Virus record (IMG/VR): IMGVR_UViG_3300044631_000103
Location: 1-20,772 of that record
Source: a virus
Direction: 5' to 3' (one strand)
Length of the DNA: 20,772 nucleotides
The notes beneath the pieces were generated by a model. It was not told the origin of the DNA. It saw only the letters and a program-made list of their open reading frames with translations, and did not search any database. The first letter of the stretch is position 1, and the number at the start of each line of letters is the position of its first letter. A program made the position numbers and the translations under genes. Positions 2,661 through 10,966 of this stretch are shown here, one piece after another.

Positions 2661-2760
2661 AGTCTCCCGTAAGTTCAAGCGCTCTTGTGATGACAAATTC
2701 GCTAAATTGTTGACCTTCTCTGACCCGATTAAGGATGGCTGTTGCTTCATGGTGTGTCAT
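2524..2760 (-). CDS. Small unknown protein with out-of-frame C-terminal extension
   Basis: The start at 2760 overlaps the methyltransferase stop as ATGA, the standard junction in this operon. Residues 1-33 (MTHHEATAILNRVREGQQ then a helix ending ALELTGD) look like a real small phage protein. From residue 34 on, the frame runs through the neighbouring gene, and its composition turns into an unconvincing Gly/Ser/Pro-rich tail. One extra base just before the ATGAGG at 2660 would produce an immediate TGA, giving a protein of about 34 residues ending LTGDL and an ATGA overlap with the next gene. I infer a one-base deletion, real or from sequencing. Function unknown. Confidence 0.45.
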   Translation of the reverse strand: MTHHEATAILNRVREGQQFSEFVITRALELTGDYEEHRSPRMDQTLSQESLGGGQGRSPILVATDPSGYCQEARPSGC

Positions 2761-3839
2761 ACAAGAATCAATGATTGTTGTGCTGTACGTTTGTTTTGCA
2801 ATTCACAGTATTTAGGATTTAACTCGCATCCCAAATATTGCCTACCAAGGTCTTGGGCTACTTGTGCGGTAGTTCCAGAACCCATGAATGGGTCTAAAAC
2901 AATTCCTCCAACTGGTGCGCCAGAAAGTATGCAAGGCTCAATCAGTTCTGTTGGAAACACAGCAAAGTGCGCTCCAGAATAAGGCTTTGTGTTAACAGTC
3001 CAAACACTTCGTTTGTTTGCCATTTCATAAGACTTTTCTAAACCAGAATGAGGTTGCAATCCAGTACCTTCTTTGTGGTACTTTCCATTACTTCTGTCTC
3101 TTGTACCCCAATCTTCTTTTACAGGCTCTTTGATCGCAACATGGTCAAAGTGATACTTATGTGATTTGCTAAACAGGAATATGTATTCATGCGCTTTAGT
3201 GCAACGATCTTGCACACTCTCTGGCATAGGGTTTGGTTTATGCCAAATGATGTCTTGGCGCAAATACCAACCATCTGCCCTTAAAGCAAATGCAAGCATC
3301 CAAGGTATTCCAATTAGGTCTTTGGTTTTTAGACCAGTAGCGTGTAATTTATCCAACTTTCTATCATTAGCTGGCATATTGTTTCTGCCTTCACGCTGAT
3401 ACTCAGGGCTAGCCCTTGCAAAACCATTGCTGTTGCAGTAACTGTCACCAATGTTGACCCATAAAGTGCCATCGTCTTCAAGAACATCCCAAACACATCG
3501 AAACACTTCGACCATGTTTTTGATGTACTCTTCAGGAGTATCTTCTAATCCTAATTGCTCATCAATGCGTTTAGCACCACAGAGATGGCAGTTTGATGAT
3601 GATCCTCCTCTATGTCCTACCTCTGGTCGCAAAACATTAGTTCCTCGCTTTGGGTCATTCCACTTAGTAGGCATTGAGATGGAATGCTCACAATTAGGAT
3701 CGCCTCCCTCCCATTTAGCAGTCCCATAGTCTCGCAAGCCATAGTAGGGTGGGCTTGTTATGCAAGTTTGAGCCTTAACACCCTCTGATGCCCATTTACG
3801 CATAATCTCACGGCAATCACCAAATTCAATTTTGTTCAT
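2757..3839 (-). CDS. Site-specific DNA methyltransferase, beta class (N6-adenine or N4-cytosine)
   Basis: A complete 360-residue methyltransferase. Motif IV TSPPYYGLRDYG is at about 28-39 and the SAM-binding motif DPFMGSGTT at about 316-324, so catalytic motif precedes SAM motif as in the beta class. An inserted CEH ... CHLC cluster in residues about 45-90 could bind zinc. GIPWMLAFALRADGWYLRQD in the middle is typical of this family. SPPY proteins may act on adenine N6 or cytosine N4; the sequence alone does not decide. No endonuclease gene is adjacent, so it is an orphan methylase and probably modifies phage DNA. It starts in an ATGA overlap with the P-like gene. Confidence 0.92.
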   Translation of the reverse strand: MNKIEFGDCREIMRKWASEGVKAQTCITSPPYYGLRDYGTAKWEGGDPNCEHSISMPTKWNDPKRGTNVLRPEVGHRGGSSSNCHLCGAKRIDEQLGLEDTPEEYIKNMVEVFRCVWDVLEDDGTLWVNIGDSYCNSNGFARASPEYQREGRNNMPANDRKLDKLHATGLKTKDLIGIPWMLAFALRADGWYLRQDIIWHKPNPMPESVQDRCTKAHEYIFLFSKSHKYHFDHVAIKEPVKEDWGTRDRSNGKYHKEGTGLQPHSGLEKSYEMANKRSVWTVNTKPYSGAHFAVFPTELIEPCILSGAPVGGIVLDPFMGSGTTAQVAQDLGRQYLGCELNPKYCELQNKRTAQQSLILV

Positions 3840-4231
3840 GCTTTTCCACCATAGTGTTTTTTAAGTTCTGCTAATTTAGCCAACGCTTCTGCCCTGATTC
3901 TTTCGCTTTCAATCTGCTCATGGATTGTTTTCTTGCGCTCAATCAGAACTTCAGTTGGAGGCTTAACAGGGATTGATGGGCCTTGGTTGCACATATCCCG
4001 AAAAGCAATGGCGCTCGGTGGAAAGTCTTTGTCCAGCTTGCCAAGCGCAAAATCTAGGCTTGGCTTGTAAGTCAGGAATCTGCCAAGGTATTGCTTCCAA
4101 GTCTGTCTGACAAGGTTTGGGTCAACATCTTGCCAGTGGGTGATGAATCGTGAGCCGTAGATAGCGTTCATCATTCCAAAAATGTAATCAAAACCTGAGT
4201 CTGGATCACAAAAGTCGTTTTCGTTCCACAT
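3836..4231 (-). CDS. Lambda P-like replication protein (helicase loader)
   Basis: A 131-residue protein directly after the O-position gene. Its central part has the layout of lambda P-like proteins: FGMMNAIYGSRFITHWQD, then RQTWKQYLGRFL, then a helix ending LGKLDKDFPPSAIAFRDMC, where the PPS and the following aromatic and Cys mark the end of the conserved domain. The C-terminal third is a charged helix, probably coiled. Lambda P (233 residues) recruits host DnaB helicase to the origin; this version is shorter. It overlaps the O-position gene by 26 bases. The O-P order and the match in the core motif support the call, but sequence similarity to P is moderate. Confidence 0.65.
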   Translation of the reverse strand: MWNENDFCDPDSGFDYIFGMMNAIYGSRFITHWQDVDPNLVRQTWKQYLGRFLTYKPSLDFALGKLDKDFPPSAIAFRDMCNQGPSIPVKPPTEVLIERKKTIHEQIESERIRAEALAKLAELKKHYGGKA

Positions 4232-4961
4232 CTTGTGCCTCCAGTACTATGGTTTCAGGTTTAGCCCAAAAGGGCGTTTTAGGAATTGATTTGCCCCTGG
4301 TCAACTCTGCCATTACGTTTTGGCGTTCTTCAGACTTGGTGAGTTTTTCTTTTAGCCATTCAGCTTTCAAGCCTTGGCTGCCACGGGTACACCACTCAAT
4401 CAAAAACTGCTCAAGTGACCAACCAATCTTGTTGGCCTCAGACCTTGCGCCTTTTACGACTGTCTCGGTCACAGAGGATTTTTTAGCTTTCCTGAGTTGC
4501 AACCAATCATTCCAAACTTGCTCAGAAACATCAGGGGGGCAAGCAACGACAGTTGCTTTCTCTCTCTTTGGTTTATGGTTATTGGTTATTGGTTTATGGT
4601 TATTGGTTGCTATTGGGGTAGCATTAGGGGGGCTATTAGCCTCCCCATTAGGGGGTGTTCCCCACCTCTTAGCCGCCCCACGTTTGCCAGCCTCTGCAAA
4701 CTCTTTGTATTGCTTAATTTCCTTGTCAGCCCTTGGGTTTACAAAGCCATCTTCTGTGGATAAAAAGAATTCATTTAAGACTGTCAAAACATCTTCTTCA
4801 TGCTCTTTCATGCCAACTTGTCTGGCAGCATCCCTGTGCTTTATTGGTTGTTCGTGCAAAAAGTAGTAGTCCAAAAGTCTGCGATAGGCCAAATCTTCCA
4901 TCAATGAAAGATGCCTAGTGTGACTCATGTAGTCACCAATGTGAAATTGGTAGTAATGCAT
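4206..4961 (-). CDS. DUF1376 (YdaU-like) replication protein in the lambda O position
   Basis: The N-terminus MHYYQFHIGDYMSHTRHLSL followed by MEDLAYRRLLDYYFLHEQP is the DUF1376/YdaU signature, a winged-helix-like domain of about 90 residues. A low-complexity Asn/Pro/Thr linker at about 105-135 contains TNNHKP twice. A basic C-terminal region follows, with VSEQVWNDWLQLRKAKK and a helix ending IEWCTRGSQGLKAEWL. Such proteins stand in for lambda O and are believed to bind the phage origin. I prefer the ATG at 4961, with AAAAGG seven to eight bases upstream, over the ATG at 4976, which adds MKRRV and has its AGGGAG too close. Tandem heptamers inside the linker may be the origin itself. Confidence 0.82.
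   Translation of the reverse strand: MHYYQFHIGDYMSHTRHLSLMEDLAYRRLLDYYFLHEQPIKHRDAARQVGMKEHEEDVLTVLNEFFLSTEDGFVNPRADKEIKQYKEFAEAGKRGAAKRWGTPPNGEANSPPNATPIATNNHKPITNNHKPKREKATVVACPPDVSEQVWNDWLQLRKAKKSSVTETVVKGARSEANKIGWSLEQFLIEWCTRGSQGLKAEWLKEKLTKSEERQNVMAELTRGKSIPKTPFWAKPETIVLEAQDVERKRLL
4570..4611. repeat. Six tandem heptamers (consensus GGTTATT) inside the O-like gene
   Basis: Reading the plus strand, six direct heptamers run without gaps: GGTTTAT, GGTTATT, GGTTATT, GGTTTAT, GGTTATT, GGTTGCT. They also form two 21-base units (4570-4590 and 4591-4611) that differ at only two positions, so the coding frame is kept and the protein repeats TNNHKP. In lambda the origin consists of iterons inside gene O. 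The position here is the same, which makes these candidate iterons. An alternative is a slippage-prone linker with no DNA role. Confidence 0.75.
4627..4645. other. Strong hairpin next to the heptamer array
   Basis: An eight-pair stem (4627-4634 with 4638-4645, one G-T pair) closes a three-base ATT loop. It lies 15 bases from the heptamers, within the coding region of the O-like gene. There is no T-run on either side, so it is not a terminator. A second, shorter G/C hairpin follows at about 4651-4664. It could be part of an origin or a translational structure. Confidence 0.5.
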
Positions 4962-5064: not shown

Positions 5065-5217
5065 TTAAACGAACCACTCAGGTTTCAGCAACTTTAATTG
5101 CCAAATTCTTGCTATTGGTACAGCCTTCCATTGGGCAACAGCGGGTTGCTTTATGCCCAACAGCTTGGCAAGCTCACTCTGTGAGCCAGCTAGTGCAATA
5201 AACTTTTGTTTGTCCAT
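5065..5217 (-). CDS. Cro/YdaS-like helix-turn-helix repressor, 50 residues
   Basis: ATG at 5217 to TAA at 5065, 50 residues. GSQSELAKLLGIKQPAVAQW at about 11-30 is a clear helix-turn-helix: helix 2 SELAKLLG, turn, recognition helix QPAVAQW. The VPIARI and LLKPEWF that follow are typical of small Cro/YdaS-like proteins. It is the first gene of the leftward replication operon and faces the rightward operon across a 133-base control region. The expected role is binding operators in that region to shut down early transcription. There is no recognisable Shine-Dalgarno sequence. A TATAAT lies seven bases before the ATG, so the mRNA may be leaderless. The alternative, an antitoxin-type YdaS, is less likely with no toxin gene nearby. 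Confidence 0.8.
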   Translation of the reverse strand: MDKQKFIALAGSQSELAKLLGIKQPAVAQWKAVPIARIWQLKLLKPEWFV

Positions 5218-5224
5218 AAGGAAG

Positions 5225-5230
5225 ATTATA
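5225..5230 (-). promoter_or_regulatory. -10 box of the leftward early promoter (leaderless Cro-like mRNA)
   Basis: A perfect TATAAT on the minus strand ends seven bases before the ATG of the Cro-like gene. Normal spacing puts the RNA start at or one base before the A of ATG. No good -35 is seen at 16-18 bases (ATGTTG or AATGTT), so the promoter may be weak or need an activator. Confidence 0.55.
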
Positions 5231-5278
5231 GCCAATTGCAAAAAAGCAACATTAGGGAAAGTACTTACAAAATAATTG

Positions 5279-5306
5279 TTGATGACTTAATAAGCTGGGT
5301 TATAAT
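5279..5306 (+). promoter_or_regulatory. Rightward early promoter
   Basis: TTGATG at 5279-5284 matches four of six -35 positions. A 16-base spacer leads to a perfect TATAAT at 5301-5306. Transcription should start near 5312-5314, about 38 bases before the first rightward gene at 5351. It faces the leftward -10 box, forming a divergent early control region like lambda PL/PR but with no gene between. Confidence 0.65.
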
Positions 5307-8228: not shown

Positions 8229-8389
8229 GCGGCAATCAGCCTGTTCATAAATTACGAAATTGTAATAAATGTGATGAGACCAAGCCGCCAGAGGGTGGGA
8301 TTGATATGGGACACAAATGGATTTGCCAATCTTGCTGGATCATGCGTTTGACAGGCAAACATTTCCGCGAGAACTCAACTCAAAAATAA
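8210..8389 (+). CDS. Small zinc-finger protein
   Basis: 59 residues from the ATG at 8210 (a GTG at 8204 in the same frame would add two residues). Cysteines form a CNKC ... CQSC four-cysteine site, with KPPEGGIDMGHKWI between, a compact zinc ribbon. GAGAG lies upstream of the ATG inside the winged-helix gene. It is the last gene of the rightward operon and its end overlaps the end of the endolysin gene by 15 bases. Function unknown; binding of nucleic acid or protein through the zinc ribbon is possible. Confidence 0.68.
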   Translation: MYPIELGGNQPVHKLRNCNKCDETKPPEGGIDMGHKWICQSCWIMRLTGKHFRENSTQK

Positions 8390-8851
8390 GGCTCTTTCGT
8401 CAATTCTGCGCTTTTGTAAGCCTTTGAGAACTTTGCCGCCAGCCATGCAGTACTTCAAAAGTTCCTCGGCAGCGCCCTCCATGTCTCCCCTAAGTACCTT
8501 TTGGCGCAGGGTTGACCTCTGGAGAGTGCCAAGCCCTACATTGAAAGAAAATGAAACCAGTGCGTCAAACTGTCCTTGAGTAAGAGGCACAGGACAATAA
8601 GTAGCCACGCCTTTCTCAAACCTAGTAAGGTCTGCCCTAAGTATTGCATCTACTTCCTCCATTGAGTGTTTTCGCATGGCCTCTGGCGGTGGCACAAAGG
8701 CATCCCGCTGATCTATCTTCAGTTTGCCTTGCTCTGGAAACATCACATGACCAACCCCTACAGTCCACAGCTTTGCAGGGCATTTATAGGGATTTTGCCT
8801 CACGCCCTCGTGATGGCGAATCATGTGCAAGCACTTGTCTGAGATGTTCAT
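8375..8851 (-). CDS. Endolysin, T4-type lysozyme (GH24)
   Basis: 158 residues, full length for GH24 phage lysozymes. The catalytic arrangement E-8-C-5-T is complete: E15 in HHEGVRQNPY, C24, and T30 in LWTVGVGH. The core LTQGQFDALVSFSFNVGLGTLQRS and the C-terminal RRIDERALFL are typical. It cuts the N-acetylmuramic acid to N-acetylglucosamine bond in the cell wall. There is no signal peptide or signal-anchor segment at the N-terminus, so release through a holin is expected; the holin-like gene is directly upstream (ATGA overlap at 8848-8851). It is the last gene of the late operon. Confidence 0.92.
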   Translation of the reverse strand: MNISDKCLHMIRHHEGVRQNPYKCPAKLWTVGVGHVMFPEQGKLKIDQRDAFVPPPEAMRKHSMEEVDAILRADLTRFEKGVATYCPVPLTQGQFDALVSFSFNVGLGTLQRSTLRQKVLRGDMEGAAEELLKYCMAGGKVLKGLQKRRIDERALFLS

Positions 8852-9363
8852 TTGCCAAAAGCCCGACCACCAAAGTGGAAAGCAATGATTGAGGCAAACA
8901 GGGCTTGGGTGTCAGAATCCCACAACATTTCAGCCAATTCGGTGAACGGCACACCACGATTCCAGCCGTAAGCAAACAGGCCAATATCAATGAACAGCAA
9001 CAGGAAAAAGAAGCCGTAAGTAATGACAGGGCGCACACTTGCTCTAAGGTTTTTCATCCATGTGGATGTTCCCTCATTCAAGCTAGTGTCATGGGCATAG
9101 AGGGCTTGCATTTCAGCTTGCTGTGCGCCAATCAGAACCTGAGTAGTGTTGGCTGCGCTCTCGGTAGCCAGTTGCTCAGACTTGATGTGTTCAATTCTTT
9201 CCTGTGCTTCAAACCCTGCTTTACGCAGTTCTAACTCACGGGTGATCTGCATCTGGGCAAGGTTTAGCTCATGCTTTTTATCTTGCCGATCTTGGAAGAA
9301 CTCCAAAATCTTGGGCAGGCCGCCCATCAAGAATGAGATTAGGGTTGAAAGTAGTGTCAGCAT
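8848..9363 (-). CDS. Holin-like membrane protein (GTA_holin_3TM-like)
   Basis: 171 residues. A short hydrophobic N-terminus (LTLLSTLISFLMGGLPKILE) is followed by a long charged helix from about 25 to 105, probably coiled coil. Then come NLRASVRPVITYGFFFLLLF with a membrane segment at about 115-132 and a last hydrophobic stretch ALFASIIAFHFGGRAFGK. The RASVRPVITY ... FHFGGRAF pattern matches the three-helix holin family described for gene transfer agents and many environmental phages. It lies immediately before the endolysin with an ATGA overlap, the normal holin place. Assigned from pattern and position. Confidence 0.72.
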   Translation of the reverse strand: MLTLLSTLISFLMGGLPKILEFFQDRQDKKHELNLAQMQITRELELRKAGFEAQERIEHIKSEQLATESAANTTQVLIGAQQAEMQALYAHDTSLNEGTSTWMKNLRASVRPVITYGFFFLLLFIDIGLFAYGWNRGVPFTELAEMLWDSDTQALFASIIAFHFGGRAFGK

Positions 9364-9372
9364 AGTGATCCT

Positions 9373-9984
9373 TTACTGTTTGCTTTTACTCAATATATTA
9401 CTTGCGATTTGCAACATACTAATTGCCTTGTTTAAGTCCTTGGGTTCTTTGTCCCAACCAACAGTGATTTGCCCAACAAACCGACCTTGCTCTGGCGGCA
9501 CACTTACACGGCATCCAAAGGTAACGCCCTTCTCAATGTACCAAAGGCCAATCTCACTTTGAGCCACGGTATATTCGCTACACGGTATCTCATTAGCCAT
9601 CAGTGCAATCACATCACGATTATTGGCTGAACTCTGGGTAAACAAACCAACATCCAAGCCATCATGCGTTTTGTCTCTGCCTTCACGGGTATAGGCACGA
9701 AACAGAACCCTTGTGCCAAATAAAGGGTTTACTTTGAATATAGCAATGACTGTTGCATCGGTGTTTTTAAACAAATGCGCTGCAACATCTTCTGCCCTTT
9801 CTTCTGCAATCGTTGGGAGTTTCTTGTTCTCTTTATAGGCATCAAATAGAAAAGATTGGTTCTGCCAAACAAAGTATCCAGCAAATGCAAACACTGCCAT
9901 CAGTATCAGCGCAAACAGCTTGAATGGGCTATCTACATAGGACAGCACCTTGCTCAATACGTCTGATGGCTTCTCGTCACTCAT
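9373..9984 (-). CDS. Membrane-anchored protein of unknown function
   Basis: 203 residues. One clear membrane segment at about 22-40 (FKLFALILMAVFAFAGYFVW) follows a charged N-terminus. The remainder, about 160 residues, is mixed alpha/beta with IAEERAEDVAAHLFKNTDAT, LFGTRVLFRAYTREGRD and GRFVGQITVGW; two cysteines (IPCSEY, TFGCRV) flank a strand pair. The strand-rich outline recalls GAF-like sensor domains, but I cannot confirm that. It lies inside the lysis region, between small membrane proteins, and starts in an ATGA overlap with the upstream 49-residue gene. Its location suggests a late membrane function such as lysis control or exclusion, as inference only. Confidence 0.72.
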   Translation of the reverse strand: MSDEKPSDVLSKVLSYVDSPFKLFALILMAVFAFAGYFVWQNQSFLFDAYKENKKLPTIAEERAEDVAAHLFKNTDATVIAIFKVNPLFGTRVLFRAYTREGRDKTHDGLDVGLFTQSSANNRDVIALMANEIPCSEYTVAQSEIGLWYIEKGVTFGCRVSVPPEQGRFVGQITVGWDKEPKDLNKAISMLQIASNILSKSKQ

Positions 9985-10130
9985 AGTCCAAACATCCCCA
10001 ATATCTTGGTCACGACCTTATCGGCTAATTCATCAGGCAGGAAGCGCAAAAAACCAACGACATACCAAGCAATGCAAAGCCTGACAAAGACTTTGAGGAA
10101 TAGATCAAATTGCTTTTGGTACTCATTCAC
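9981..10130 (-). CDS. 49-residue single-pass membrane protein (GTG start)
   Basis: GTG at 10130 to TGA at 9981. The start overlaps the upstream stop as GTGA and the end overlaps the next ATG as ATGA, so the gene fills the space exactly. The protein begins NEYQKQFDLFLKVFVRLCIAWY, with a hydrophobic segment at about 11-28 (FLKVFVRLCIAWYVVGFL), and ends with an amphipathic helix PDELADKVVTKILGMFGL. No family recognised. A role as holin, antiholin or lysis accessory is possible from the neighbourhood. Confidence 0.62.
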   Translation of the reverse strand: MNEYQKQFDLFLKVFVRLCIAWYVVGFLRFLPDELADKVVTKILGMFGL

Positions 10131-10621
10131 CGACCACACCTTGTCTTGGCACAGAAATCTTGTATCTCAGCAATTCCCCAACCAACTGCACCCAAGAGCA
10201 TCACGATCACAACAACACCAACCGCCCATGCCATGTATTCTTCTTCTTCTTCTTTTCTTTTCTTTTCTTCTTCTTTGGCTTGTCTGGCTAAATGAGCATC
10301 TTCAATGTCCATTTGCTGCTGGCGTTGCTTAATCTTAGTCCACACGTCTGCACGGCCAGTAGCCTGAAATAAGAGCATCAATTCGGCCTCAAAACGCTTC
10401 GCCTCATCAAGCGCCATCTCGATTTGAAGTGCAGTGCCTAAGTTTGATTTGTTGCCAGAACGCTTGGCTTCTACCATCGCCCTTGTTGCAACGCTCTTGG
10501 CGTCAAACATCTTGGCGATAGACGGGGCTAAACCAGCCAGATCATTTGCGACCTTGCTGGCTTTTTTGACTACGCTGATTGCACTTTGTAATCCTGCAAG
10601 CGCTGTTATGGGGTCAATCAT
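10127..10621 (-). CDS. Phage protein with charged helix and C-terminal membrane segment
   Basis: 164 residues from the ATG at 10621, which overlaps the stop of the 47-residue gene upstream as ATGA; an upstream ATG at 10642 would add seven residues but breaks that junction. The start MIDPITALAGLQSAISVVKK is followed by SKVANDLAGLAPSIAKMFDA and helices to about 110. A highly charged Lys/Glu run comes from a polypurine stretch, then a membrane segment MAWAVGVVVIVMLLGAVGWG and a short tail with two cysteines. Similar proteins occur as unknowns near the lysis or tail genes of podoviruses. It could be an inner-membrane lysis component, such as a spanin partner, but no spanin signature is seen. Confidence 0.75.
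   Translation of the reverse strand: MIDPITALAGLQSAISVVKKASKVANDLAGLAPSIAKMFDAKSVATRAMVEAKRSGNKSNLGTALQIEMALDEAKRFEAELMLLFQATGRADVWTKIKQRQQQMDIEDAHLARQAKEEEKKRKEEEEEYMAWAVGVVVIVMLLGAVGWGIAEIQDFCAKTRCGR
10238..10276. repeat. 39-base pure pyrimidine/purine tract
   Basis: Thirty-nine bases of only C and T on the plus strand (TTC and TTTTC units) within the preceding gene, where they code for the alternating Lys/Glu stretch. Simple-sequence tracts of this type can slip, so length variation between relatives would be expected. Confidence 0.85.
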
Positions 10622-10761
10622 TTCCGTACAACCTTTACCCATTCAAGGCAAACAACCTTCCGGTTGTAAACATCACCTGTCCACGCCCACCTTACACAAC
10701 GGTACTCGACTTTTTCTAAAGTTCTTGCTAACAGAAACAATGGCAAAAAAAGCCAAAGCAT
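10618..10761 (-). CDS. 47-residue protein with N-terminal hydrophobic segment
   Basis: ATG at 10761 to TGA at 10618. The first 12 residues MLWLFLPLFLLA are strongly hydrophobic, followed by RTLEKVEYRCVRWAWTGDV and YNRKVVCLEWVKVVRK. The pattern of a short export or anchor segment followed by a compact domain with two cysteines (C22, C38) and several tryptophans suggests a periplasmic protein with a disulphide. The stop overlaps the next start as ATGA. It fills the gap of about 130 bases between two better-known genes. I recall similar short unknowns in phages, but I cannot name a function. Confidence 0.65.
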   Translation of the reverse strand: MLWLFLPLFLLARTLEKVEYRCVRWAWTGDVYNRKVVCLEWVKVVRK

Positions 10762-10768
10762 CCATTGC

Positions 10769-10966
10769 TCACAAACCTATGATTTTTTTGACCAACTCGC
10801 CCGCAAAGCCTGGGCCGAGCAATACAGCCGCAATTACCACATAAAGCAAATACTCAATGCGGGTCATGCGCTGTGAACCTGATTCAAAGGACTTTTCAAT
10901 GGCGGTGTACCTCTCAGCACAGACCGCCTCATGAACCGCCAGCCGTGTGTCGGTATCCTCAAGCAT
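10769..10966 (-). CDS. Small single-pass membrane protein, holin candidate
   Basis: 65 residues. A charged N-terminal helix (LEDTDTRLAVHEAVCAERY) is followed by FESGSQRMTRIEYLLYVVIA and a membrane segment at about 38-57 (EYLLYVVIAAVLLGPGFAGE), with a short basic end VKKIIGL. This layout, hydrophilic helix then one C-terminal membrane segment, is frequent in phage proteins annotated as holin-like. It starts in a TAATG overlap with the gene upstream. It may be a second holin or an antiholin to the three-helix protein next to the endolysin; which one is the active holin cannot be told from sequence. Confidence 0.7.
   Translation of the reverse strand: MLEDTDTRLAVHEAVCAERYTAIEKSFESGSQRMTRIEYLLYVVIAAVLLGPGFAGELVKKIIGL

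Follow-up and report, generated by a model that had tools for sequence, protein, structure and literature searches.

The six small genes that lie in front of an endolysin gene in this DNA are best read, with a probability of about three in four, as part of the lysis cassette of a short-tailed phage, in which a T4-type and a TeaA-type holin stand together with a membrane module that is independent of the holin. The cassette is ordinary in kind and unusual in make-up, since two holin types are combined with a strictly coupled accessory unit; gene order, conservation, the fold similarity of T203 and the swapping of holins and endolysins are demonstrated, and the activities given for its proteins below are predicted ones. 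The initial annotation had placed six membrane or exported proteins here, far more than a holin and spanins need, and had treated them as one set, perhaps a lysis-timing or membrane-exclusion system not yet described. The lysis context and the excess of membrane proteins are both upheld. The view of a single new system is not, as the region divides into a holin/endolysin block whose members are swappable and the ta164-s49(-s47) genes, which form a unit apart. T203 and H171, moreover, have known relatives (T4 holin T and TeaA/GTA_holin_3TM, respectively). T203 could plausibly act in lysis timing, since it is the T-type holin that is regulated when T4 lysis is inhibited (PMC11413866); for membrane exclusion, the findings count neither in favor nor against.

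Table 1. Genes of the cassette and the adjoining endolysin, with positions in the window
Gene	Position	Strand	Description
m65	10769..10966	-	65 aa; soluble N-terminal part, single C-terminal TM helix (41-59)
s47	10618..10761	-	small protein; ~30-residue predicted periplasmic part; C22 and C38 invariant
ta164	10127..10621	-	164 aa; phrog_32327; C-terminal TM anchor (hydropathy 133-151)
s49	9981..10130	-	49 aa; GTG start; TM helix 10-28; amphipathic C-terminal stretch
T203	9373..9984	-	phrog_31287; T4 holin T-like; hydropathy peak 21-39
H171	8848..9363	-	phrog_6637; TeaA/GTA_holin_3TM-like holin candidate
lys158	8375..8851	-	GH24 phage lysozyme; PF00959 E 7e-37; phrog_7

Gene order and conservation

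The window, that is, the whole stretch of 20,772 bases that was analyzed, is a fragment of a short-tailed phage genome. Its plus strand carries recombination genes, and on the minus strand, upstream of the cassette, lie genes for P22-like DNA-transfer/ejection proteins together with tail and tail-spike genes. The six genes are placed between the tail spike and the GH24 endolysin, all on the minus strand, in the order m65, s47, ta164, s49, T203 and H171, followed by lys158 (Table 1). A check of the ORFs and hydropathy analysis confirmed the six membrane or exported proteins at this place, with one strong hydrophobic helix each in m65, ta164, s49 and T203. Other details of the initial annotation held only in part. 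H171, described as a three-helix holin-like protein, has two strong hydrophobic helices (2-20 and 113-131) but a weak third one, and the hydrophobic start ascribed to s47 contains no segment above the cut-off in the window, although a signal-peptide-like start is evident in its relatives. Likewise, the two genes of fewer than 50 residues were said to fit between stop/start overlaps; s49 overlaps both neighbors by 4 nt each, but s47 does so (also by 4 nt) on its downstream side only and is preceded by a gap of 7 nt. T203 and H171 are spaced by 9 nt.

Median dN/dS values among relatives were 0.10 for ta164, 0.11 for s49, 0.24 for s47 and 0.04 for both T203 and H171; the value for m65 (0.11) comes from one pair only, with saturated dS. 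Retention in relatives and low dN/dS, indicative of purifying selection, argue that the small ORFs are not chance occurrences. Matches to virion structural proteins would likewise have counted against the initial annotation; none of the six proteins gave an accepted match to such families. Comparison with spanin families gave no match for any of the six, and the window holds no recognized spanin. A sequence search of the PDB gave no match, and nothing useful was returned by NCBIfam or by PADLOC, whose library covers host defence and not phage exclusion.

The constancy of the set was examined in a census of 83 non-redundant loci that had been fetched with T203 or H171 and kept only if an endolysin was present. 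An H-type holin was found in 80 loci and T203 in 65, both counts being inflated by the use of these two proteins as queries; ta164 was found in 64 and s49 in 60. The co-occurrence expected of a single set did not hold for m65 (24/83) or s47 (16/83). Absence from most relatives had been named in the initial annotation as evidence against its own reading, and neither gene can be regarded as a constant member; m65 is an optional member of the cassette.

Putative holins and their exchange

An AlphaFold model of T203, built from 39 natural sequences (pLDDT 84, pTM 0.68), consists of an amphipathic helix (6-15), a TM helix (20-41), a bridging helix (43-54) and a GAF-like α/β domain. The published layout of T4 holin T runs from an amphipathic helix through a TM and a bridging helix to a periplasmic domain (PMC12162936). 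Indeed, when the model was compared with the PDB using Foldseek, the first three ranks were taken by T4 holin T (6psk, 6pxe and 6px4), the best match being to its periplasmic domain (E 6e-6, TM 0.71 by target). GAF domains scored just behind, so the fold alone is no proof of holin function. Named matches among the BFVD viral models include Holin, Class III holin and T holin lysis mediator. Support at the sequence level is weak but points the same way: the T203 and T4 T families align end to end in hhalign (E 0.0017, probability 15%), and the probability falls to 5% with a wider alignment; other, unrelated cassette families align over short stretches (E 0.04-0.15). When a T4 T HMM was run over 2,681 ORFs, T203 relatives took ranks 1-139 (E 0.0015), with the first outsider at E 0.57, although many of the 139 are closely related to each other and do not count as independent. 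The modeled architecture suggests that T203 acts as a T4 T-type holin.

More than 500 relatives of T203 were matched in IMG/VR, and a genome scan gave a single one, in a metagenome-assembled genome. Residues C135 and C158 are invariant in the 39-sequence alignment. RI is the partner of T4 T and is not required of every T-type holin; an RI antiholin profile found nothing significant among the ORFs of 60-130 aa in the relatives. Two members of the Straboviridae, Cronobacter phage S13 and Citrobacter phage Ci1, carry T203 relatives. No T4-type holin T was recognizable in either phage, a result that for S13 was repeated beside positive controls, and the T203-family gene is possibly a replacement of T in both. 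One locus (L183) contains two T203-family genes (2757-3362 and 4100-4852) with a 230-aa ORF between them (3359-4051). In three others (L089, L092 and L099), a 77-aa tryptophan-rich ORF that has no family match lies between T203 and H171 (e.g., L092:6774-7007).

H171 is built of an N-terminal hydrophobic helix, a long charged helical middle and two C-terminal hydrophobic segments. It gave no match to PF11351 above the gathering score and is therefore not filed as a member of that family; an hhalign alignment covered only the H171 C terminus. A homologue of H171 in locus L164 (MW202710) matches phrog_1544 (E 2.4e-7), as does TeaA of ICP1 (E 1.7e-53). H171 is tied to the TeaA family through this intermediate homologue, which makes it a candidate holin. 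Experiments showed TeaA, a PF11351 protein, to be a holin: it dissipates the membrane potential, and dinitrophenol triggers it (PMC7182436). H171 probably works like a PF11351/TeaA holin. True PF11351 proteins (E to 5e-24) occupy the role of H171 beside the endolysin in sister cassettes, and there GH108 or M15 endolysins replace GH24.

The family match identifies lys158 as a GH24 endolysin, presumably cytoplasmic. Hydropathy revealed neither a hydrophobic N terminus nor an export signal, and for such an endolysin a hole-forming (large-hole) holin is expected. Among the 83 loci, the endolysin was of GH24 type in 49, GH108 in 26 and M15 in 8. The slot before H171 is filled by T203, by a 90-aa two-TM protein or by a 102-aa one-TM protein, or is empty. 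The blocks that follow ta164-s49 include T203-H171-GH24, H171-GH24, T203-GH108-PF11351 and T203-PF11351-M15, and in a fifth type a two-TM protein occurs with Rz and GH19; overall, GH24, GH108, M15 and GH19 endolysins are thus exchanged. In L243, L245 and L301, the genes after ta164-s49 encode a two-TM protein whose tail is rich in proline, an Rz-like spanin and an endolysin of GH19 type, and L301 has an additional ORF for a 63-aa lipoprotein-like product (5098-5289).

In the mechanism proposed here, T203 and/or H171 would build up in the inner membrane and, at a set time, permeabilize it, giving lys158 access to the cell wall. H171 or its PF11351 counterpart would accompany the endolysin almost constantly, and T203 would be a common, replaceable addition that could tune timing. 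The periplasmic GAF-like domain of T203 may be the counterpart of the antiholin-binding site that delays lysis in T4. Alternatively, T203 could form no hole and instead, anchored in the membrane, act from the periplasm as a sensor or as a regulator, antiholin or trigger, of H171 as the real holin. The near-constant presence of an H-type holin, the lack of T203 in many complete H171-lysozyme cassettes and the GAF-like nature of its periplasmic domain would all fit such a role. Against it, T4 T, an established holin, shares the architecture (PMC12162936), and a T203 relative in Edwardsiella phage GF-2 is the sole annotated candidate between Q and the endolysin. A purely regulatory T203 is thus rather unlikely, and the assignment as a T-type holin is preferred.

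The ta164-s49(-s47) unit

The relatives of s47 have a signal-peptide-like N-terminal stretch followed by an almost invariant mature part of 30 residues, EYRCVRWAWTGDVYNRKVVCLEW, with two invariant cysteines. In ta164, a helical cytoplasmic part precedes the C-terminal TM and a short predicted periplasmic tail, which in most relatives carries the motif CAKxRCGR with two conserved cysteines; its model is helical and of low confidence, and a structure search of the PDB gave no match below E 0.58. The N terminus of s49, (M/V)NEYQK, is conserved among relatives. Two further sets of loci, fetched with s47 and with ta164, avoid the query bias of the census, and some contigs may be in both. Both ta164 and s49 adjoin s47 in all 39 non-redundant s47 loci, s49 follows ta164 in 37 of 37 non-redundant ta164 loci, and an endolysin lies within about 4 kb in every locus of either set. 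T203 was present in just 9/39 and 9/37, respectively. Ten of the 37 ta164 loci contain s47 and nine T203, with both in one, and the two show no positive association. The ta164-s49(-s47) genes are a separate, translationally overlapping accessory membrane unit that accompanies several unrelated holin/endolysin blocks.

Several specific roles were considered for this unit and rejected: that of a T203-specific antiholin, because T203 is found in so few loci of each set; that of spanins, because one of the following blocks already has Rz and the TM of ta164 is C-terminal; and, for ta164, that of a counterpart of ICP1 ArrA, with which it does not align. Most likely, though this is a tentative assignment, the unit modulates lysis timing or the late-infection envelope in a general way and is not the partner of one holin. 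More specifically, s47-ta164-s49 might be an undescribed holin-independent lysis-control module that sets or blocks lysis whatever holin and endolysin follow, a speculative proposal. If true, such a module would comprise an exported peptide with two cysteines, an inner-membrane protein that is tail-anchored and has two further cysteines in its periplasmic tail, and a small one-TM protein.

The same exported and tail-anchored components and the independence from holin and endolysin type across the five block types are also compatible with a superinfection-exclusion or envelope-sealing module that lies beside the lysis genes merely as part of a late operon. The constant proximity of an endolysin in both sets is closer than exclusion genes need, and PADLOC, with its library of host defence, offered no match; an exclusion module is doubtful, if conceivable. 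Like T4 RI (PMC8385771, PMC11413866), s47 is small and exported with two invariant cysteines, which would suit a periplasmic antiholin of T203. It does not co-occur with T203, as the 9/39 s47 loci and the single ta164 locus with both attest, and shows no similarity to RI (hhalign probability 1%), so this role was rejected as barely credible. A role of the small proteins in the virion or its assembly, without a link to lysis, is very unlikely too. Their genes come after the tail-spike genes, and m65 has a sub-threshold match in NCBIfam (E 0.007; 16 bits, cut-off 50) to RCAP_rcc01685, a family for head formation in gene transfer agents, but no structural family match was accepted and the linkage is constant to endolysins, not to any particular tail gene. 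A general modulating role of ta164-s49(-s47) therefore remains the preferred reading.

A different small protein is found in another branch of T203 relatives. In most of the listed loci L160 and L167-L208, the gene for an exported protein of 89-114 aa with two conserved cysteines overlaps the stop codon of the T203 relative by 4 nt. The family also occurs in T203-free cassettes, and it has a 78-79-aa neighbor where the 90-aa two-TM protein replaces T203. The window yielded no homologue of it. In 149 pooled loci, ta164 with s49 (123 loci) and the exported family (18 loci) never occur together, an exclusion that may partly reflect lineage because the queries used for fetching differed between the sets. 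In size, export and number of cysteines the protein resembles T4 RI, but the two are not related in sequence, and homology to RI was rejected (hhalign probability 0.3%, best rank with the RI profile 156). That it takes a place comparable to s47-ta164-s49 is a lead and not a finding.

Comparison with known lysis systems

Most work on T-type holins and lysis inhibition concerns T4-like phages, and TeaA/ArrA of ICP1 is the other worked example. In the present cassette, a T-like holin candidate stands beside a TeaA-like one in small, abundant environmental phages, both types being known from lysis inhibition. The cassette allows a test of whether lysis is commonly regulated in phages beyond the T4 group, and it contains, in ta164-s49(-s47), a unit that is conserved although the holin/endolysin blocks beside it are of five unrelated kinds.

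T203 shares with T4 holin T the amphipathic helix, the one TM, the bridging helix and a periplasmic GAF-like domain. The sequence similarity is, in contrast, very weak, T203 lies beside a second holin-type gene, and the RI antiholin known for T4 was not found among T203 relatives. T5-like phages have their T gene immediately before the endolysin. The arrangement in phage GF-2 is Q antiterminator, T203 relative, endolysin and Rz; the T203 relative is directly before the endolysin, with a 4-nt overlap, and hence in the holin slot. GF-2 differs from the window in the Rz-like spanin after the endolysin, and neither a second holin nor the ta164-s49 unit is annotated there. ICP1 TeaA and H171 are linked through the L164 homologue, with PF11351 proteins filling the H171 role in sister cassettes, but the ArrA antiholin is not matched by ta164 and the neighboring genes of ICP1 differ. 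According to published accounts, two holin-like proteins beside the endolysin also tune lysis time in mycobacteriophage Girr (LysF1a/b; PMC13056207) and in phage N4 (gp62/gp63; PMC12642591). As described there, the Girr and N4 proteins are of different types from those of the cassette described here.
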